Part shown: positions 53,221-61,253 of the stretch, one piece after another
Position numbering within the stretch: position 1 is the stretch's first letter
How the letters are laid out: the number at the start of each line of letters is the position of its first letter
Origin: Bacteroidales bacterium
Lineage (GTDB): Bacteria; Bacteroidota; Bacteroidia; Bacteroidales; UBA12077
Length of the DNA: 64,000 nucleotides
NCBI GenBank assembly: GCA_016342685.1
Contig: JAEINU010000002.1
Span: 267,085-331,084 of the forward strand
Direction of reading: 5' to 3'
Notes under the pieces: generated by a model
Database searches by the model: none
Told to the model about the DNA's origin: nothing
The model's input: only the letters and a program-made list of their open reading frames with translations
Program-made: the position numbers and the translations under genes

Positions 53221-53952
53221 TTATTTTTCTAGCCACCATTTATCATAACGATCTACATTTCCATAAGAACCAAGATATTCCGTTGCAAAATGAGATGACC
53301 AGCCAAACTTCTTATATTTTGAATTCATTAAGGGCTCTCCTCCTCTATTATCAAAATCTCCTCCTAATTCTTCTGAATATCGATTAAACCCAAAATGACA
53401 GGAATACACTTTCCCAGAAACTACACTTTCCCAAGTTCCTGCATAACCTTCAAGATCACTTAATTCAATATGACTATCAGCAGTAATAATAGAGTTATCT
53501 TTCCAGGAATATATTAGATATCTTCTATAACTACCATGAAACAACCCATTTTTATCATCTTCAAGAAACTTATAAGTTCCAATAAGCACTAACCATAATT
53601 CTTTACTATCGATATCTATATTGTTAAATTCAACATGTTCAATATTAATTTCCCCTGTAAATCCAACTATTTTACCCTTTAATCTGCTTTTCCCAATAAC
53701 AGAATAATTTTCATCTGAAATCTTTGAAACCTTGTCAAACCTGATGTTTATTTTGTATTTATTTTCTCCAAACATGCCTAAATAACTGGCATCATTATAA
53801 AAAAATGCAGGGGAAACATCGTTGTTGTTTAAAAACTCAATATAATCTGATTGGTTTTTCCATTTTTCGATACTATTCTCTGTATCCTTTTGTGCTTTGC
53901 CCATTAATGAGAGTAGTATAAGACCAATTATTAATAATTTTGATTTATTCAT
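53221..53952 (-). CDS. Secreted protein of unknown function, partner of the upstream large protein
   Basis: A 243-residue protein with a signal peptide (1-20; SKLLIIGLILLSLMGKAQ). The mature part is beta-rich with many aromatic residues (GLFHGSYRRYLIYSW, YSCHFGFNRYSEELGG, FGWSSHFATEYLGSYG) and no domain that I recognise. Its start overlaps the end of the 646-residue upstream gene by 8 bp, so the two are translationally coupled. Given the upstream protein's effector-like layout, a periplasmic immunity role is a reasonable hypothesis but not shown. Confidence 0.75.
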   Translation of the reverse strand: MNKSKLLIIGLILLSLMGKAQKDTENSIEKWKNQSDYIEFLNNNDVSPAFFYNDASYLGMFGENKYKINIRFDKVSKISDENYSVIGKSRLKGKIVGFTGEINIEHVEFNNIDIDSKELWLVLIGTYKFLEDDKNGLFHGSYRRYLIYSWKDNSIITADSHIELSDLEGYAGTWESVVSGKVYSCHFGFNRYSEELGGDFDNRGGEPLMNSKYKKFGWSSHFATEYLGSYGNVDRYDKWWLEK

Positions 53953-55885
53953 TTAAATCTCCTTCCTGTGTTTCTATTTCGTTATATGGATCAGTAATAT
54001 TTATCAAAGTATAATACCATCGCCGTTGGCCTGAATCTTCAGCTTTATTTATTGTATTCCACCAATAATCATAAAATGTTTGCGCACCGTATACAACCTG
54101 ACAACCTTCTGAAGCTAAGTGCACATTTTCAGAAATTTCTTGACTTCCATCATCTAAGTTCGCTGTAGATATATCAACAGCAGTGGCTGCATCTCCATCA
54201 AGATGTTCTTCCTCATCTTCTGAATTAAATTCAATTGTTTCTTTAAGATAAGTTTTCCAAGCAGGTGTAAAGCAACTATCCCCTAAAATAGTTGTTATTC
54301 TATTATAATCAGCTATTGTTTCATTTTGCTCATTAGTTCTATCAACTTCAGAAACTACAATAGCAGAATCTCTGGATGTTTTTAAGTAATCATATGCACT
54401 CTTATCCCTATCCGTTCCATATTTAGAAAGTATGTAAAAAGCTTCACCCAATAATAAATTATTGCTAAATTGGTCTTCAGTTGTTGCTCCATATGCGCCA
54501 GAAAAGCCTGCAAGAGCACTATTAGTAACATTTATTTGACCTCGATAGCCATCCATTCCTCCAGGATGAAGATTCAGTCCTGCTTCCCATGACTCCTTAT
54601 CAAAATCATAACCATTATTATTATTATCACTCCCTTTAATAAGTAATTTCTCTGTACGTCCACCAGGTTGTCTGGAACTATGTAATCCAAGCAAAACAGT
54701 CATAGTCTGTGGTGTCATAATTCTATTAGAATCTCTATTGCCTGGCTCTGTAGTTGCAGAATAATGCCTACAATATTTTATTTCATTTCCTTCAGCATCT
54801 GTTTCAATCCAACTTGCAGCCATAGTATCGTTCCATTGCACTTCATGATCTTCAGCTTCAGTAATTTCAAGTTCTCTTCTTAATCCTGTTAAATTAACAA
54901 TATTGTCTTCATCACTCCATAAACCATTTCTTGCTAAAGTAATATCACGCATAAAGTCATACAAGGTTTCTTCGCTATCAGAACCAAAATCAGGTAACTC
55001 AATATCTGTATCATCCGCTTTTTTCATATTTGTATTATCACCCTCATCACGAAGAGTATTCTTTGAATCTTCTCCCATTATTGTAGCAAAAGAAGTACCA
55101 GGTAAACCATCGACAGAACTCATTATTGTGGTAATATTTTCTGTTGTAATTTCTCCATTATTGCTGCTTACAGCATTTTGCAATTGAACTTTTACAATTC
55201 CTAATATACCAGCATCTGGAATTATCAGAGAATTATCATCAGTTATACCAGTAATGTTATTTGGGTTAGTATAAGTAAATCCCATTACATTCTCAGATGC
55301 ATATTTCATTATACCAATTATCGCATTCCAATTATAATTGTTAACAATCCAAGTTCGTTTTATCTGAATATTACCCGATACTTGATTTACGGAAGAAACA
55401 CCTTCATTGTCATAAAAAACAACATTTATAGTTCCATCATTATTAGCCCAAACATTATATGAATTGGGTACGCTTAGAACTCCAATTCCTACTTCATTCT
55501 CCTCTACTGTTTGAAAATTAGCACCATCCCCCCATGACCACAAAGGAGGATCTTGTTCCAGAACTTGTCTCTGCACTCCACTTCCTCTACCAACAACATC
55601 AACCATCTTGCCCTGTGCTACCTTCGCTCCCATTTCATCCGCTTCTTTTTCTAAAGACGGACTATTATTTATTGGTAAGCCTTTCGCTTGCCCCTGTTCT
55701 TCCTCCTCCTTAGCAAACATTTGAGTTGCTTGCCCTTTATTATTAAACATTCCCCAACCAGAATCAACACTCATATTTTTTATCCAATTGGCTTGTGCCT
55801 TTGGATCTATTTTCTTTTGAGTTGTTTCTGATTGATTATTATCTGAATTCTGTTGAAGACTTCGATCAATAAAAGATTGCGACAT
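53945..55885 (-). CDS. Effector-like protein: eCIS-type N-terminal module and L,D-transpeptidase-like domain
   Basis: A 646-residue acidic protein without a signal peptide. Residues 1-110 are low-complexity and Gln-rich and contain SPSLEKEADEMGAKVAQG and a closing GSGVQRQ; this matches, from memory, the LEKEADxMG segment that follows the HExxH core in DUF4157 proteins linked to extracellular contractile injection systems, but the HExxH core itself is absent. About 310-610 resembles a domain with IVNLTGLRRE, WNDTMAASWIE, SATTEPGN, GLNLHPGG (H440) and ASEGCQVVYG (C595): the H...SxGC pattern of L,D-transpeptidase-like enzymes and of SAGCQV proteins. It overlaps a secreted-protein gene by 8 bp. 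Function as a cell-wall-directed effector is inference; no injection-system genes are in the window. Confidence 0.65.
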   Translation of the reverse strand: MSQSFIDRSLQQNSDNNQSETTQKKIDPKAQANWIKNMSVDSGWGMFNNKGQATQMFAKEEEEQGQAKGLPINNSPSLEKEADEMGAKVAQGKMVDVVGRGSGVQRQVLEQDPPLWSWGDGANFQTVEENEVGIGVLSVPNSYNVWANNDGTINVVFYDNEGVSSVNQVSGNIQIKRTWIVNNYNWNAIIGIMKYASENVMGFTYTNPNNITGITDDNSLIIPDAGILGIVKVQLQNAVSSNNGEITTENITTIMSSVDGLPGTSFATIMGEDSKNTLRDEGDNTNMKKADDTDIELPDFGSDSEETLYDFMRDITLARNGLWSDEDNIVNLTGLRRELEITEAEDHEVQWNDTMAASWIETDAEGNEIKYCRHYSATTEPGNRDSNRIMTPQTMTVLLGLHSSRQPGGRTEKLLIKGSDNNNNGYDFDKESWEAGLNLHPGGMDGYRGQINVTNSALAGFSGAYGATTEDQFSNNLLLGEAFYILSKYGTDRDKSAYDYLKTSRDSAIVVSEVDRTNEQNETIADYNRITTILGDSCFTPAWKTYLKETIEFNSEDEEEHLDGDAATAVDISTANLDDGSQEISENVHLASEGCQVVYGAQTFYDYWWNTINKAEDSGQRRWYYTLINITDPYNEIETQEGDLNE

Positions 55886-56089
55886 ATGTAATTTTTTTCT
55901 TCATTCTCTGTATAACAAATATAACGATTCCATTCATAATACGATTAATATTTTTCGATAATTGAAGTTTTTTAATTTACCTTTCTCAAATCCTTTTCTA
56001 TTTATTTCAAGTAAAATCAATAAAACTTTTCAGTTTTAAAACCTTTTTCATATTTTTAGGTAAAATAACACATCCTATACCTATACGTT

Positions 56090-56716
56090 ATGTTCAAAAA
56101 ACTTTTAATTATTAGTTTAGTTTTCGTGAGTTTTTCTCAGGCTCTTTATTCTCAGATACCTGGATTAACTTTTACTAATAAAAAAGATCAGGAAGACATA
56201 TACCTTAAAACGAAAACGGTTTGGATAACTGCCACACCTTTCTTTTTAGTAGAAAAGAAATTTTCTCCCGATCAAGGCGCCACCTATTTAAAAGTAGGAA
56301 TGCTTGGAGGAAATTTAAAACCATATGTACAGGAAGACTCTATTGCTTATCGAAACTTAAAGAATTATAAATTAACAAGAGTTTTTGGACTTGCCCAAAT
56401 GGGAGTTATTGCACCTCTACTGGCTTACAAACACTTCACAACTGAACCTGGGACTGTTTCTACCGGAAATGAAGATATTGATGAAAGTGTTGTATTGGAA
56501 GAAGAAACCGGATATTTAACCGCTGCAATTATTGTATTCTGTACAGGCACATTAACATATCATGTCTTTTCTAAAAATTATTTATTCAGATCCTTAGATC
56601 GATATAATTACCTGCTAGGAAATAACATAGATATGGAAGCTGTAGCTTTTAATATGAATATGACAATCGATCCGAGAACACAAACACCTCAGCTATCACT
56701 CGTTTGGACATTCTAA
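56090..56716 (+). CDS. Secreted protein of unknown function
   Basis: A 208-residue protein with a signal peptide (1-21, ending LYSQ). The body has two hydrophobic stretches (VFGLAQMGVIAPLLAYK and YLTAAIIVFCTGTLTYHVF), so it may be associated with a membrane, and the end MNMTIDPRTQTPQLSLVWTF, closing with Phe, looks like a beta-strand terminus. I recognise no family. It lies 205 bp from the divergent effector-like gene and 78 bp upstream of the sigma-factor region. Confidence 0.7.
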   Translation: MFKKLLIISLVFVSFSQALYSQIPGLTFTNKKDQEDIYLKTKTVWITATPFFLVEKKFSPDQGATYLKVGMLGGNLKPYVQEDSIAYRNLKNYKLTRVFGLAQMGVIAPLLAYKHFTTEPGTVSTGNEDIDESVVLEEETGYLTAAIIVFCTGTLTYHVFSKNYLFRSLDRYNYLLGNNIDMEAVAFNMNMTIDPRTQTPQLSLVWTF

Positions 56717-56794
56717 AAAAACACCTTTTTATCTTCTATTTAATTTTAGTAAATTGTCAAATCATTTTAAATGCTTTGTACAAATCTATAAAAT

Positions 56795-56839
56795 ATGGCA
56801 TTAAACCCATCCAATTGGATAATTTAACATGGCGATTAC
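56795..56839 (+). other. Expected N-terminus of the sigma factor, interrupted by an in-frame stop
   Basis: An ATG at 56795 opens MALNPSNWII, then TAA at 56825-56827, then HGDYL leading into the sigma factor in the same frame. Members of this sigma group usually begin with an NPxxW...DYLYNYA segment (recalled, not searched), so the true gene appears to start at 56795 and to carry a nonsense codon. A single base change from AAA, CAA or GAA would explain it. Confidence 0.65.
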
Positions 56840-57346
56840 TTGTATAATTATGCAATTTCAAGAACACATTCTACAGAAATCTCAGAAGATCTTATTCAAG
56901 ATACATTTTTGTCAGCTTTGCGAGCCAAAGATTCCTTCAAAGGAAAAAGCACCGAGAAAACTTGGTTGATTGCCATTCTCAAACGTAAAATAATAGATTA
57001 CTATAGAAAAAATTCCAGAAACATTGAAGATAATTTAATTGATAAGGCGAAACCATTTAAAGATTCCGGTTTTTTTTCAGGACATTGGTTAGATAAGAAT
57101 GCTCCACATGAATGGAATATTAGTGATGACATCGAAAATCAAGAATTAATAAAAATTATTCAATACTGCTTGTCACTATTACCACTAAAATGGGCATCGT
57201 GTTTTAACCTAAAAAACTTAGAGGAAATTCCAAACCAAGAAATTTGTAAGGAATTGGGAATTTCAGAGTCTAATCTATGGGTAATGTTACACAGAGCACG
57301 ACTACAACTCAGAGAATGCTTAGAAATAAATTGGTTTAAAAAATGA
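56840..57346 (+). CDS. RNA polymerase sigma factor, ECF type, linked to the RiPP cluster
   Basis: From a TTG at 56840 the frame gives 168 residues. Region 2 is present (YNYAISRTHSTEISEDLIQDTFLSALRAKDSFKG, then EKTWLIAILKRKIIDYYRK), and region 4 reads CLSLLPLKWASCFNLKNLEEIPNQEICKELGISESNLWVMLHRARLQLREC. The SNLWVMLHRARLxLREC form is usual for sigma factors sitting beside DUF692/DUF2063 operons. The TTG start would be a reinitiation or misread product, because the conserved upstream part is cut by a stop at 56825. It overlaps the anti-sigma gene by 4 bp (ATGA), so the two are coupled. It probably drives the precursor promoter. Confidence 0.8.
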   Translation: MYNYAISRTHSTEISEDLIQDTFLSALRAKDSFKGKSTEKTWLIAILKRKIIDYYRKNSRNIEDNLIDKAKPFKDSGFFSGHWLDKNAPHEWNISDDIENQELIKIIQYCLSLLPLKWASCFNLKNLEEIPNQEICKELGISESNLWVMLHRARLQLRECLEINWFKK

Positions 57347-57648
57347 CACAACACGATCACAATCATCTAATAAAAGACAAAATGCCACTCATGATTTCAT
57401 GCGATCAGACAACTTACTTATTATCGAAAAATCAGCATGAGGAAATTGGTTTTATTACGAAGCTTAAAATTAAAATGCACCTTGCAATGTGCGTTTATTG
57501 TCGCAGATACGAAAAACAAATTAAATTCCTAGATAAAATTATTATTAAAATTAAATCTGCTCCCAACCTAAATTCTTTTCAGCACAAATTAACCTCAGAA
57601 CAAAAAGAAAAGATCGCTGAATCTATTAAAAATCAAGAGAATTCATAA
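57343..57648 (+). CDS. Zinc-finger anti-sigma factor-like protein
   Basis: A 101-residue soluble protein. It begins MPLMISCDQTTYLLSKNQHEEIGFITKLKIKMHLAMCVYCRRYEKQIKFLDK, which has the C ... H-x3-C-x2-C arrangement of zf-HC2-type (ZAS-like) anti-sigma factors, and has no membrane span. Such proteins bind their sigma factor and release it on metal or redox change. It overlaps the sigma gene by 4 bp and precedes the metallophore precursor, so copper or another metal may be the signal (inference). Confidence 0.82.
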   Translation: MTQHDHNHLIKDKMPLMISCDQTTYLLSKNQHEEIGFITKLKIKMHLAMCVYCRRYEKQIKFLDKIIIKIKSAPNLNSFQHKLTSEQKEKIAESIKNQENS

Positions 57649-57673
57649 TTTTTTATTTTTTTCCCAAATCTTT

Positions 57674-57701
57674 TGTAAGGTTTTCCAAAGTACCCCGACT
57701 A
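57674..57701 (+). promoter_or_regulatory. Candidate ECF-sigma promoter of the RiPP precursor
   Basis: TGTAAGG (57674-57680) and CGACTA (57696-57701), with about 17 bp between the cores of the two boxes, resemble ECF-type -35 and -10 elements. They lie in the gap between the anti-sigma and precursor genes, about 48 bp before the precursor ATG. No matching copy is visible upstream of the sigma gene. Confidence 0.4.
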
Positions 57702-57748
57702 AACAATCAAATAATTATTTATAATTAATCTAAATTAATTTATTTGTT

Positions 57749-58177
57749 ATGGAAAACAAAAAAACAAAAAAAGCAAGCATCCTTAAAGGAGCAATATTAA
57801 CTGGAGTAATCGCTGGATTAACTCCTTTATCAGTTAATTCTTCTGCATTATTTACATATGACGTATTGGGTTCTGGCGCAGAAGTTAGAACACAAATTTT
57901 ACAAGAAAAAACTTCGGATGGAACTGTATATGAACTAAAATGCGGTACTGAAAAGAAAGAAGATCCCAAGAAAAAAAGTGAAGCTAAGAAAAGTGAAACT
58001 ACAAAAGCGGAGGAAAAAGGAAAAACAACCGAGGCTAAATGTGGCGAAGGTAAGTGTGGTGAAGGAAAATGTGGTGCAGAAAAGAAAGACGCTAAAACAG
58101 AAAAGAAAGAGGGTAAAACCGAAGAAAGTAAAACTACTGAAGCTAAATGTGGCGAAGGTAAATGTGGAGTTGAATAA
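57749..58177 (+). CDS. hvfA: HvfA/bufferin-type RiPP precursor with EGKCG motifs
   Basis: A 142-residue protein. A basic N-terminus (MENKKTKKAS) and hydrophobic segment (about 11-33) form a signal peptide, followed by LFTYDVLGSGAEVRTQIL, then a Lys/Glu/Thr-rich part with six KCG units: C65, C98, C103, C108, C134, C139. Three of them are EGKCG (C103, C108, C139) and two EAKCG (C98, C134); EAKCGEGKCG occurs twice. In the Haemophilus HvfA family, cysteines of EGKCG motifs are converted to oxazolone-thioamide groups that bind copper. The DUF692 and DUF2063 genes needed for this follow, which makes the RiPP assignment strong. The product is presumably exported to the periplasm. The spacing of the Cys pairs is about 5 residues. 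Confidence 0.85.
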   Translation: MENKKTKKASILKGAILTGVIAGLTPLSVNSSALFTYDVLGSGAEVRTQILQEKTSDGTVYELKCGTEKKEDPKKKSEAKKSETTKAEEKGKTTEAKCGEGKCGEGKCGAEKKDAKTEKKEGKTEESKTTEAKCGEGKCGVE

Positions 58178-58204
58178 TATTTAACTATTTATTTTGCAAA
58201 ATGG

Positions 58205-58270
58205 CTACCACAGTAGTAATTCTTCATTTAGATTGATTTAATTAGGGTTAAGCAAAGTTTATTGTGGTAG
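58205..58270 (+). promoter_or_regulatory. Stem-loop in the precursor-maturase spacer
   Basis: CTACCACA (58205-58212) pairs with TGTGGTAG (58263-58270), enclosing a 50-nt loop. It lies just upstream of, and does not overlap, the larger stem-loop at 58274-58340, so both can form in the same transcript. Confidence 0.45.
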
Positions 58271-58273
58271 TTG

Positions 58274-58344
58274 AGTTCAGGAATTAGTAGGTAACGTTGA
58301 TTCTTACTCATAGTGAATTTAGTTTTCTAATTCCTGAACTTTTT
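58274..58344 (+). terminator. Attenuator-like terminator between precursor and maturase genes
   Basis: A 14-bp perfect stem AGTTCAGGAATTAG / CTAATTCCTGAACT (58274-58287 with 58327-58340), loop 39 nt, followed by TTTT. It ends only 17 bp before the DUF692 ATG at 58361. It could make most transcripts end after the precursor gene while a minority read into the enzymes. Confidence 0.65.
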
Positions 58345-58360
58345 AATAAAAATCACAAAA

Positions 58361-59200
58361 ATGAACTCAACAGTAAATATAGGACTTGGTTTTAGGCGCG
58401 ATCTAGCCAATGATTTCTTAACTCAAGAAGTTATTAATCCTGGCTTTATAGAATTTGCACCTGAAAATTGGATTGATATGGGAGGATATTGGGGAAATAT
58501 TCTTAAAGAAGTTGAACAAAAATATCCTGTAACATGCCACGGATTAAGTCTTTCCTTGGGTAGTCCTGAGGAGTTAGATTGGAAATTCATAAAAAAACTT
58601 AAAATATTTCTTGACGAGCACAATGTTGAAATATATTCTGAGCATTTATCATACACGAAAGCTGCAAATGCTCATTTATATGATTTATTACCAATTCCTT
58701 TTCGTGAAGATGCCATTCATCATGTAGCGGAACGAATTAAGCAAGTTCAGGATTTTCTGGAACGGAAAATTGCAATCGAGAATGTATCCTACTATACCGC
58801 TGTTGCAGCAGAAATAGACGAAGCTACATTTATTAACGAGATTGTTAAAGAAGCGAATTGCAACTTACTTCTTGATGTGAATAATGTATATGTGAATGCT
58901 TTTAATCATAATTACAACGCAAAAGAATTTCTAAATAAAATGCCTTTGGATAAGGTCGCTTATATTCATATGGCAGGTCATGAAAGAGTTGCACCCGATT
59001 TAATTATAGATACTCATGGAGAAGCAATTATTGACCCTGTTTATGATTTATTCGATTGGACCATACAGAAAATGGAACCTGTTCCTATTTTACTAGAAAG
59101 AGATTTCAATTTTCCGGAGATGAAAGAACTACAAAACGAATTAAACAGCTTAGAAAAAATTTGTAAAAAACATTGGGAGGTTCAGCATGAGTCTAAATAA
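58361..59200 (+). CDS. hvfB: DUF692 multinuclear non-heme iron oxidase, RiPP maturase
   Basis: A 279-residue TIM-barrel enzyme of the MbnB/BufB/HvfB family. Metal-ligand motifs are in order: GFIEFAPENWID (E31-N37), CHGLSLSLG (H60), YSEHLSY (E94, H95), IENVSYY (E140), LLLDVNNVYVN (D172, N175), YIHMAGHE (H203, H207), DTHGE (D217, H219) and LLERDFNFPE (E246). The whole length matches the family. In this family the iron cluster oxidises cysteine residues of a precursor peptide to oxazolone-thioamide or thiooxazole groups. It follows the EGKCG precursor and overlaps its DUF2063 partner by 14 bp. Confidence 0.93.
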   Translation: MNSTVNIGLGFRRDLANDFLTQEVINPGFIEFAPENWIDMGGYWGNILKEVEQKYPVTCHGLSLSLGSPEELDWKFIKKLKIFLDEHNVEIYSEHLSYTKAANAHLYDLLPIPFREDAIHHVAERIKQVQDFLERKIAIENVSYYTAVAAEIDEATFINEIVKEANCNLLLDVNNVYVNAFNHNYNAKEFLNKMPLDKVAYIHMAGHERVAPDLIIDTHGEAIIDPVYDLFDWTIQKMEPVPILLERDFNFPEMKELQNELNSLEKICKKHWEVQHESK

Positions 59201-59939
59201 AGAAACTGTTAACATACAGGATTCTCTTGCTCTTTTTTGCCGTAGTGGTATTGAACCTCTAATACCATTGTCGAGACCAGAAAATTTGCATCACTACAGG
59301 CGCTTGGTCTTTAATGTTGTTCTTAATACAATGACACAAGCTTTTCCGATTGCACATAAAGCATTTGGGAGCAGAAATTTTACAGATCTTGTGCATGATT
59401 TTTTTCTTAATCATGATAGTCAAACTCCGCAAGTTTGGAAGCTTCCTTTTGAATTTTACGAATATGTTGTTGCAAAGGAACATCAGGAAAAGTTTGCAAT
59501 GCCATTTTTAAACAACCTTTTATTGTTTGAATGGACTGAAATTGAAGTACATACAATGCCAAATGTAATTCCACACAGTTTTCAGAACGAAGGAAATATG
59601 TTCACCGATATTTTGATTGTAAATCAAGAATATAAGATATTACAACTTAATTATCCGGTTCATTTATACGCTCCCGACAAAGCAAAAGATTTATTAGGCA
59701 ATTATTATCTGATTGCTTTACGCAATCCCGAAAATTTTAACGTAAAATTCTTAAACTTATCTATTTTACACGTCTACTTTACTGAACAGCTTTCCATAGA
59801 AGAACAAACCATAAATGAAATAATTAATAAAGCCTCTGAGATTTTTAATCTCGAAAAGAACTTATTAATTACAAACATCACCCCATTCCTAAACGATATG
59901 TTTCTCCAGAAATTAATTCTTGGATATAAAAAACATTAA
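59187..59939 (+). CDS. hvfC: DUF2063 (HvfC/BufC-type) RiPP maturation partner
   Basis: A 250-residue protein. The N-terminal domain starts ALFCRSGIEPL ... HHYRRLVFNVVLNTMTQAFPIAHKAFG, the DUF2063 signature that corresponds to MbnC/BufC N-terminal regions, and continues to KLPFEFYEYVV. The C-terminal half (about 120-250) is mixed alpha/beta with PNLLLFEWTEIEVHTMPN and VHLYAPDK. Partners of DUF692 enzymes form a heterodimer that binds the precursor. Its start overlaps the DUF692 gene by 14 bp, so the two are coupled. Confidence 0.93.
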   Translation: MSLNKETVNIQDSLALFCRSGIEPLIPLSRPENLHHYRRLVFNVVLNTMTQAFPIAHKAFGSRNFTDLVHDFFLNHDSQTPQVWKLPFEFYEYVVAKEHQEKFAMPFLNNLLLFEWTEIEVHTMPNVIPHSFQNEGNMFTDILIVNQEYKILQLNYPVHLYAPDKAKDLLGNYYLIALRNPENFNVKFLNLSILHVYFTEQLSIEEQTINEIINKASEIFNLEKNLLITNITPFLNDMFLQKLILGYKKH

Positions 59940-59987
59940 CTCAACATATAAATCAATTACAACAGCAACTTTTCTAATTTTTATATC

Positions 59988-60419
59988 ATGAGAAAGATTT
60001 ATCTAAATTTTATAAAAAAAATGGAGGTACTAAAAGATTTACCTCTATTATTTACCCGATTGGTTTTAGCATATGGCTTTTTTGGGCCTGCAACCATGAA
60101 ATGGTCTGGAATAAATAATGTTATTAGCTGGTTCGATAGTATGAACTATCCATTACCTGCCATAAGTGCCTATTTAGCAGCAACAACGGAAATTGTAGGA
60201 GTATTTTTATTATTGTTCGGATTAGGAACCAGAATTATTTCTATGCCACTCATGTTTGTTATGTTTATTGCAATTTCAACAGTACATATGGGTAATGGTT
60301 TTGAAGCAAGTAATAATGGTTTTGAGATTCCACTCTATTATCTGTTTATGTTATTTGTACTATTGGTAAATGGACCTGGAAAATATAGTTTAGACTATTT
60401 GCTTAGCAAAAAGAAGTGA
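59988..60419 (+). CDS. DoxX-family membrane protein of the RiPP cluster
   Basis: A 143-residue protein with four membrane spans (about 16-37, 53-72, 79-100 and 111-130). DoxX signatures are FTRLVLAYGFFGPATMKWSG, SWFDSMNYPLPAISAYLAATTEIVGVFLLLFGLGTRIISMPLMFVMF and a terminal NGPGKYSLDYLL. DoxX genes often end DUF692/DUF2063 copper-RiPP operons and may help with redox or membrane handling; the exact role is unknown. A terminator follows. Confidence 0.88.
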   Translation: MRKIYLNFIKKMEVLKDLPLLFTRLVLAYGFFGPATMKWSGINNVISWFDSMNYPLPAISAYLAATTEIVGVFLLLFGLGTRIISMPLMFVMFIAISTVHMGNGFEASNNGFEIPLYYLFMLFVLLVNGPGKYSLDYLLSKKK

Positions 60420-60436
60420 GTATTTCAAAATAAAAA

Positions 60437-60474
60437 GTAAAAGAGCCAACACCCTAAAGTGTTGGCTCCTTTTG
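60437..60474. terminator. Rho-independent terminator after the RiPP cluster
   Basis: A 10-bp stem GAGCCAACAC / GTGTTGGCTC (60443-60452 with 60459-60468), loop CCTAAA, followed by CTTTTG. Its flanks are A-rich on one side and T-rich on the other, so it may work for both strands. Confidence 0.92.
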
Positions 60475-60514
60475 TTCGCAAAAACTATGATAATGAAAAT
60501 CAAAAATCTTTATA

Positions 60515-61042
60515 TTACTCTATAGCGCATTCTAGTATTTCTTCTTCTTTATATGAATTATGCATATTGTCCCAAACAGAATATAAACTTTCAATGTCAT
60601 CCTGTCCATTCTCATAACTCTCCTTATAATAATCATTTAGCTCAAAATACTCTTTTTCTCCTGAGTTAATAATCATTACCTCTAAGCCTTCAAAATCAAC
60701 AAACAATTTGATTGCTGTTTTTTTGCTCGACTCTATAATTTTATTCAAAAAATTGCTTGACACCTCTACAGTTAAAATTCCATAATTAACCGCTTTAACT
60801 TTAAACAAATCAGTAAATACATCGGATATTACAACACCAAATCCCATATCGAAAATCGACTTTACAATTTGGTCGTAATTCGAAACCTTATTGCAATCAA
60901 CATCAACAACTAATATATTTTCTTTACGACTCGGATTTGCTTTTTCAATATTTATATCCAACATTTCCTGATCGCACTTTTTCACATCCTTTGCAATTGC
61001 CAAAACCCTTGAAGTTAAGGTAGATACTTTCAATAAACTCAT
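60515..61042 (-). CDS. Orphan LeuD/aconitase swivel-like domain protein
   Basis: A 175-residue protein. About 75-110 reads MGFGVVISDVFTDLFKVKAVNYGILTVEVSSNFLNKI, which aligns by eye with the LeuD pattern of a Gly-Phe start, an S/DxFxDIFxxNAxNNGLL core and a following helix; the end FELNDYYKESYENGQDDIESL recalls the LeuD FEI-D/N-xYKKxCLxNGxDDI tail. The substrate-binding loop is changed and no LeuC partner is nearby, so enzymatic function is doubtful. It may be a divergent relative with another role. Monocistronic; a divergent TPR-like gene lies 211 bp away. Confidence 0.55.
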   Translation of the reverse strand: MSLLKVSTLTSRVLAIAKDVKKCDQEMLDINIEKANPSRKENILVVDVDCNKVSNYDQIVKSIFDMGFGVVISDVFTDLFKVKAVNYGILTVEVSSNFLNKIIESSKKTAIKLFVDFEGLEVMIINSGEKEYFELNDYYKESYENGQDDIESLYSVWDNMHNSYKEEEILECAIE

Positions 61043-61253
61043 ATCAATAAAATTTGAAATTTTAATTTTTTGTTTACATTTGTTCTATAAGTATTCCCAA
61101 TTTTGATCACCAAATGTATTTTTTGTATTCATAGGTTTAAAACAAAACATTTGATGATTTACGATGTCTACTATAAAGAACTCGATCTTAATATTTAGCT
61201 AAATCTTTAATTATCATTAGTGTAATTGATTAAAACCAAAAAATAAAACTACA

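Follow-up and report, generated by a model that had tools for sequence, protein, structure and literature searches.

How is a captophorin operon switched on in a Bacteroidota bacterium, and what does it make? We examined this question in a stretch of 64,000 nucleotides (hereafter the window; contig JAEINU010000002.1, positions 267,085 to 331,084, forward strand) from Bacteroidales bacterium (UBA12077; assembly GCA_016342685.1), where genes for a sigma factor and a zinc-motif anti-sigma factor directly precede those for an EGKCG-repeat precursor and the proteins HvfB, HvfC and HvfX. We consider it probable that this is a captophorin operon under its own extracytoplasmic function (ECF) sigma/zinc anti-sigma factor (ZAS) switch, with one target site before the precursor gene, another embedded in the sigma gene, a negative feedback, and a 5-thiooxazole peptide that would bind Cu(I). 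Both the operon and this type of switch have precedents; the surprising part is the promoter that would lie inside the sigma gene.

Gene content and class of the operon

The operon comprises the following genes.

56795..57346, forward strand: ECF sigma-70 gene (PF04542, PF08281; TIGR02943-like, but under that model's cut-off)
57343..57648, forward strand: zinc anti-sigma factor (ZAS, H-x3-C-x2-C; NF052368)
57749..58177, forward strand: HvfA-like precursor of 142 residues (NF050137; six KCG units; leader LGSGAEVR)
58361..59200, forward strand: HvfB, multinuclear non-haem iron oxidase (MNIO/DUF692; PF05114, NF003818)
59187..59939, forward strand: HvfC, partner protein PME1 (DUF2063 plus RRE-like domain; PF09836, NGO1945_C, fold match)
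59988..60419, forward strand: HvfX, DoxX-family membrane protein (PF07681, NF050144)

The initial annotation had recognised this six-gene block, and its content and order are confirmed. The sigma factor has regions 2 and 4, as expected of the ECF group (PF04542, 52.5 bits for a cut-off of 24; PF08281, 39.6 for 25.7). The anti-sigma factor matches its family model NF052368 (54.8 bits, cut-off 50) and shows by eye the zinc motif H-x3-C-x2-C as HLAMCVYC, which places it among the ZAS proteins; Pfam zf-HC2 stays below cut-off (17.8 versus 22.2), and a search at E 1 retrieved no sequence relative in the PDB. The precursor matches NF050137 (KCGExKCG, 25.5 bits, cut-off 19.5), carries the six KCG units first counted in it and thus belongs to the repeated-EGKCG type; its N-terminus, basic and then hydrophobic, looks by eye like a signal peptide.

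The DUF692, DUF2063 and DoxX assignments all lie above curated cut-offs. HvfB scores 338 bits with the MNIO profile PF05114 (cut-off 25) and 392 with NF003818 (cut-off 360), making it an HvfB-type enzyme with 3BWW as closest solved relative. An alignment of 17 Bacteroidia enzymes has 85 invariant columns, including those of the expected His, Asp and Glu iron ligands. HvfC is a partner protein by PF09836 (48.7 bits, cut-off 27.2) and NGO1945_C (27.9, cut-off 27); the PDB holds no sequence relative of it at E 0.001, and its AlphaFold model (mean pLDDT 90.4) finds its best fold matches in Neisseria NGO1945 (3DEE, E 6.4e-6) and the TglHI complex. HvfX reaches 64 bits with PF07681 (cut-off 23.6) and 126 with NF050144 (cut-off 80), as a DoxX/HvfX protein.

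To which class does the operon belong? It had been labelled 'HvfA/bufferin-type'. The first half of the label is upheld by the curated models, the conserved neighbourhoods and the similarity of the HvfC model to NGO1945 (3DEE) and TglHI. The second half is not: the BufB model gives 276 bits for a cut-off of 310, no DUF2282 match appears at E up to 1, and we reject membership in Buf1/Buf2. The operon appears to be of the HvfA or 'captophorin' (EGKCG) kind, and its most likely product is a secreted peptide that is modified and binds copper; copper binding is documented for EGKCG captophorins (PMC13097082). The oxazolone-thioamide chemistry first ascribed to the locus has been superseded in print: the hvf product that originally bore this name is now described as a 5-thiooxazole, and the class is named captophorins (PMC13097082, PMC13419390).

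How widespread is the arrangement? MNIO genes occur in 5 of 78 genomes of the window's relatives, and HvfB above cut-off in 20 of the 395 genomes of a sample of the class, the window genome being included in both counts. A KCG precursor lies near all 24 HvfB loci read and near none of ten lower-scoring MNIO loci, within the stretch read. A second Bacteroidia MNIO group (L029-L038) scores 242-264 bits with the HvfB model and has no KCG precursor within the stretch read.

For gene order and motif counts we used 81 loci, the window and the best 80 of 359 relatives (Bacteroidales, Marinilabiliaceae, Prolixibacter, Draconibacterium, Chitinophaga, Ignavibacteriota and a few others). Among the 73 with at least 1,300 nucleotides upstream, sigma and anti-sigma genes stand in cis in 50 and are absent in cis from 23. 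What the initial annotation saw as a Bacteroidota variant with a sigma/anti-sigma switch is therefore real and is the usual form among these close relatives, but a kindred switch is known in trans in Haemophilus influenzae. On a Pantoea soli plasmid (L289), sigma and zf-HC2 genes face a DoxX gene and a 'DNA-binding domain-containing' gene, possibly DUF2063, so that cis linkage may also occur in Pseudomonadota. A landscape paper places EGKCG precursors mostly in Pseudomonadota, and 'Bacteroid-' is absent from its main text, figures and supplements being outside this statement (PMC12452194). Titles and abstract openings in the literature, a range that leaves out most subscription papers, gave no account of this operon or of the cis arrangement in Bacteroidota. 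With this locus, a copper-binding class of ribosomally synthesised and post-translationally modified peptides, in print mainly a matter of Pseudomonadota, gains members with dedicated regulation in Bacteroidota and Ignavibacteriota.

A promoter-like motif before the precursor gene

Reading the DNA upstream of hvfA gave the consensus TGTAAGG-N15-CGWCTA, present in the window as follows.

57674..57701, forward strand: promoter-like motif TGTAAGG-N15-CGACTA, 75 nucleotides upstream of the hvfA ATG

With the five loci that lack a placed precursor left out (L046, L058, L091, L092 and L107), 76 loci remain, of which 47 have the strict form and 52 the loose one, while only 30 of 15,200 shuffled regions match strictly; some motifs are missed in these counts where the open reading frame (ORF) start was set too far upstream, as in L041. 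The spacing is identical in 51 of the 52 matches, though gaps of 12 to 19 were allowed, and the median distance to the precursor is 73 nucleotides in loci with the motif. Presence of the motif goes with presence of the sigma gene: it is found in 40 of 49 loci with a cis sigma factor versus 8 of 21 without (Fisher p 6e-4). Exact matches number one in the window genome, the copy given above, and none in the fixed-spacer reversed control. A wider regulon in that genome could not be substantiated (8 one-mismatch matches, 7 in the reversed control), and only two sites, both in the operon, are credible.

A second copy in the codons of the sigma factor

The other credible site lies within the sigma gene itself, with the same motif and spacing.

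57245..57272, forward strand: promoter-like motif TGTAAGG-N15-AGTCTA inside the sigma gene, one -10 mismatch, in the region 4.2 helix-turn-helix codons

The codons concerned specify C-K-E-L-x-I-x-x-S of sigma region 4.2, and the median distance to the anti-sigma start is 100 nucleotides. Is the motif there simply because the protein is conserved? It occurs in 45 of 53 hvf-linked sigma genes, against a mean of 1.96 and a maximum of 7 in 500 within-gene synonymous codon permutations, and in none of the genes for four other operon proteins (hvfB 0/81, hvfC 0/80, hvfX 0/45, anti-sigma 0/55). Measured against each locus's own codon use in these 53 genes, 52 of them readable at the motif, the lysine codon is AAG in 50 of 51 cases (15.4 expected), the greatest deviation among 74 columns; serine is TCT in 33 of 50 (8.5 expected) and cysteine TGT in 48 of 52 (27.6 expected). 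Regardless of the residue encoded, NCG precedes the serine codon in 49 of 52 rows. Codon bias elsewhere in the gene is not nil, other columns deviating up to z 6.2. This is a diverse set of sigma proteins, with a median identity of 43%; of 23 cluster representatives less than 60% identical, 18 have the motif. Because of the codon choice and the permutation result, protein conservation alone is insufficient to account for the motif, and its retention at the nucleotide level in close relatives is strongly supported.

Upstream of the hvf-linked sigma genes, window included, the motif was found in none of 52 (three lacking 300 upstream nucleotides), and we discarded autoregulation from such a promoter. 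In Pseudomonadota, the full embedded motif is in neither of the two readable stretches among four fetched.

Covariation of a residue and a base

The class sample comprised 77 distinct sigma loci, 76 of them with a neighbouring anti-sigma gene and 65 without hvfB. In some sigma genes the motif lysine is replaced by glutamine, always with the codon CAG (14 of 14), and the embedded site then reads TGTCAGG. Searching TGTMAGG-N15-CGWCTA in 51 genomes returned 65 sites for 9 in the reversed control; of the 65, 18 fall within sigma genes and one belongs to an Asn-type genome. Outside sigma genes the sites are 37 A to 1 C in genomes with the Lys sigma factor, and 2 A to 5 C in those with the Gln form (p 1e-4), the pattern expected if the sigma factor reads the motif. 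Gln-type genomes mostly use TGTCAGG (L021, reverse strand, 1003; L264, 2418; G088; G124; G115), and in L021 a promoter-like site of this form stands 63 nucleotides before the precursor.

The same sigma family also offers an exchange of position. Seven of the 77 sigma genes (L176, L230, L272-L276) have the motif upstream, and all seven lack an embedded copy (Fisher p 0.012); on sequence grounds this family would represent the opposite feedback wiring. Taken with the constant spacing, this exchange and the covariation make the embedded motif a reasonably supported candidate site of the sigma factor.

The proposed circuit

Oxidative or copper stress would free the sigma factor from its zinc anti-sigma factor. 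Free sigma could then start transcription at TGTAAGG-N15-CGWCTA before hvfA, giving precursor, HvfB, HvfC and HvfX, and also at the motif in its own region 4.2 codons, giving more anti-sigma with read-through into the operon. As this second start would yield more anti-sigma, the loop would be one of negative feedback, the sigma factor probably driving both its own inhibitor and the peptide operon. HvfB and HvfC would oxidise the KCG cysteines to 5-thiooxazoles, and the modified peptide, once exported, would bind Cu(I) in the periplasm.

As for the embedded site in general, we lean towards the view that an ECF sigma family of Bacteroidota carries its own target promoter in its helix-turn-helix codons, driving anti-sigma and operon, such that Lys to Gln would alter protein and site together and outside promoters would follow (TGTAAGG to TGTCAGG). 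One DNA stretch would then specify the reading protein as well as the sequence being read, a clean overlap of coding and regulatory meaning within a gene's recognition element that would make a joint specificity change of sigma factor and promoter testable. No sigma gene with a promoter in its own DNA-binding codons came up among titles and abstract openings, most subscription papers excepted. The promoter motif also offers a handle for seeking the operon's regulon.

Several observations weigh against the circuit. The precursor and HvfC fall short of the narrower equivalog models (NF050188, 33.6 bits for a cut-off of 95; NF050145, 104.5 for 142). The hvfA motif is present in 8 of the 21 loci without a cis sigma factor, for which a trans factor is assumed; a flexible-spacer search of the window genome returned one match and its reversed control three; and of the 19 class-sample hvfB loci, 5 show an hvfA motif that is clear to the eye, with possible misses where the ORF start was set too early, as does neither of two relatives examined alongside. 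The embedded motif is less general in the class sample than in close relatives, being present in loose form (TGTAA) in 38 of 77 sigma genes, with the hvf-linked ones at 5 of 12, and incomplete in five of the six hvf-linked genes read from one family (f62). The class-sample codon table (69 rows) counts at least three misread rows (L238, L258, L259), one of which adds an AAG to its 35 of 37. The seven upstream-motif cases all belong to one family and may be a single event. The sites of the covariation were sorted by hand, and they are not independent within a genome or within a genus, three genomes of a single genus supplying 18 of the 37 A sites. One further Lys-genome site, the 39th, was set aside; it is a C next to the second sigma gene of its genome, which is of the Gln type, and counting it gives p 3e-4. 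In addition, 37 Lys loci, mostly read as 5 kb stretches, contain three TGTCAGG copies. In the window itself, AG replaces CG in the embedded -10, and the sigma frame opened at 56795 meets an in-frame TAA at codon 11 (56825-56827), which the initial annotation had missed; these two features reduce the odds that the loop operates there as described.

Alternative explanations

Is the switch still alive in the window genome? The system might be decaying there, with a dead sigma factor and hvf genes expressed by the housekeeping sigma factor or silent. The stop and the -10 mismatch point that way, as do the single exact promoter copy and the want of a close sigma paralogue in the genome (152.7 versus 57.3 bits). 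However, the other five genes have open frames, and the longest stop-free sigma ORF starts at a TTG (56840) 12 nucleotides past the stop and lacks the first residues of region 2. The sigma gene is intact, encoding 185 residues, in a metagenome-assembled genome of the same genus (G012, contig JANQHE010000061.1; L006/L039), and past the stop the two differ by 0.155 at nonsynonymous sites (pN) and 0.75 at synonymous ones (pS, saturated), a mark of purifying selection. From this constraint, either the stop is recent, or translation starts at the TTG, or the assembly is wrong at this point. We take decay seriously but regard it as doubtful. Under the proposed circuit, the operon may be weakly regulated in the window genome or may rely on the TTG start, and the feedback loop may be weakened, because of the stop and the mismatch. 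In the same-genus relative a DMT/EamA-like transporter gene, recognised by eye, directly precedes the sigma gene (L039 2540-3406; L006 9314-10180); it is absent from the matching place in the window (56717-56794). A dmt gene adjoins rpoE2 in Haemophilus (PMC7907618).

Is copper the target? The motif in relatives bears on this question as well as on the signal. In a look at 20 stretches, five of whose proteins were profile-tested, the products of genes behind the motif include MsrA (L188), a fusion of MsrB with MsrA (L170) and a lone HvfX (L186), each of which passes its Pfam cut-off; YHS-like and Omp28-like proteins are also there, below cut-off. In L264, a DoxX-like protein and an MsrB, both recognised by eye, lie behind the motif or its TGTCAGG form. 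In H. influenzae, RpoE2, held by the zinc-motif anti-sigma factor HrsE, is needed for induction of the hvf operon in trans and controls msrAB (PMC7907618). Because these repair enzymes sit behind the same motif in relatives, oxidative stress is, by our analysis, at least as likely a signal as metal stress; the likeness of the genes behind the motif to the regulons of Haemophilus and Neisseria points to oxidative damage as one component of that signal. The peptide could serve another metal, or act as a thiol or oxidant buffer instead of a copper buffer, in keeping with the Msr enzymes and with the hypochlorite response of the H. influenzae operon (PMC7907618). We judge such a role unlikely in view of the copper binding of EGKCG captophorins (PMC13097082) and of the KCG units and both enzymes, which fit that copper-binding class.

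That the operon works while the embedded motif is an mRNA-level or other DNA-binding signal and not a promoter is quite unlikely. In its favour, the motif sits in coding DNA and its TAAGGA resembles a Shine-Dalgarno core. But a median of 100 nucleotides from the anti-sigma start is too far for ribosome binding, which disposes of the Shine-Dalgarno reading, and the motif recurs with identical spacing in the non-coding region ahead of hvfA. Other genomes have it ahead of msrA, of an msrB-msrA fusion gene and of a solitary hvfX, and one family has it upstream of the sigma gene instead.

RNA hairpins and other elements

Two further features accompany the operon in the window.

58203..58341, forward strand: two tandem RNA hairpins, the second followed by a T-run, between precursor gene and hvfB (z -3.9, dinucleotide shuffles)
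60443..60468, forward strand: terminator-like hairpin after hvfX, by consensus match only (the scan found 2, for a shuffle mean of 2.0)

The first pair is a possible attenuator or 3' end protector. A stable hairpin at this place is present in 59 of 75 loci (z below -3, mononucleotide shuffles), and a plausible role, to go by sequence, would be production of precursor in excess of enzyme. No Rfam element reaches its gathering score in 55900-61100. Sigma-70 consensus promoters were set aside as uninformative (27 found, shuffle mean 23.5). A 646-residue ORF on the reverse strand, at window positions 53945-55885, has no Pfam match at E 0.01.

Comparison with known systems

The operon shares its four core proteins, with a KCG-repeat precursor of seemingly secreted type, with the known captophorins, namely hvfABCX/oxazolin of H. 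influenzae, fontiphorin and gonophorin. It differs from them in its Bacteroidota host, in the sigma and anti-sigma genes in cis directly before the precursor, and in the precursor's longer Lys/Glu spacers and its leader LGSGAEVR, common to relatives. The precursor had been called unlike the compact classical examples, which is only partly so: HvfA of H. influenzae likewise has six KCG units, its six repeat cysteines forming three AEGKCGEGKCG (PMC13419390), and Lys/Glu-rich spacers occur in Bacteroidota relatives as well.

RpoE2/HrsE of H. influenzae and SigE of Neisseria are likewise ECF sigma factors with zinc-motif anti-sigma factors, and their regulon includes msr and a doxX/hvf operon (PMC7907618); in H. 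influenzae the hvf genes lie in trans to the switch, in the window in cis. At the codons matching the embedded motif, the gonococcal relative has no copy, and a Halomonas relative has TGTAAGG without the CG. Bufferins Buf1 and Buf2 also combine MNIO, DUF2063 and DoxX proteins, some with a sigma factor, as in Buf1 with sigma/NrsF (PMC12452194), whereas the window operon has no DUF2282 match, a BufB score below cut-off and a ZAS-like anti-sigma factor. In Caulobacter vibrioides, too, a sigma-factor circuit makes use of an intragenic promoter: sigV is driven from within cabp, the gene that precedes it (PMC13171946), whereas the promoter proposed here would lie in the sigma factor's own DNA-binding codons.

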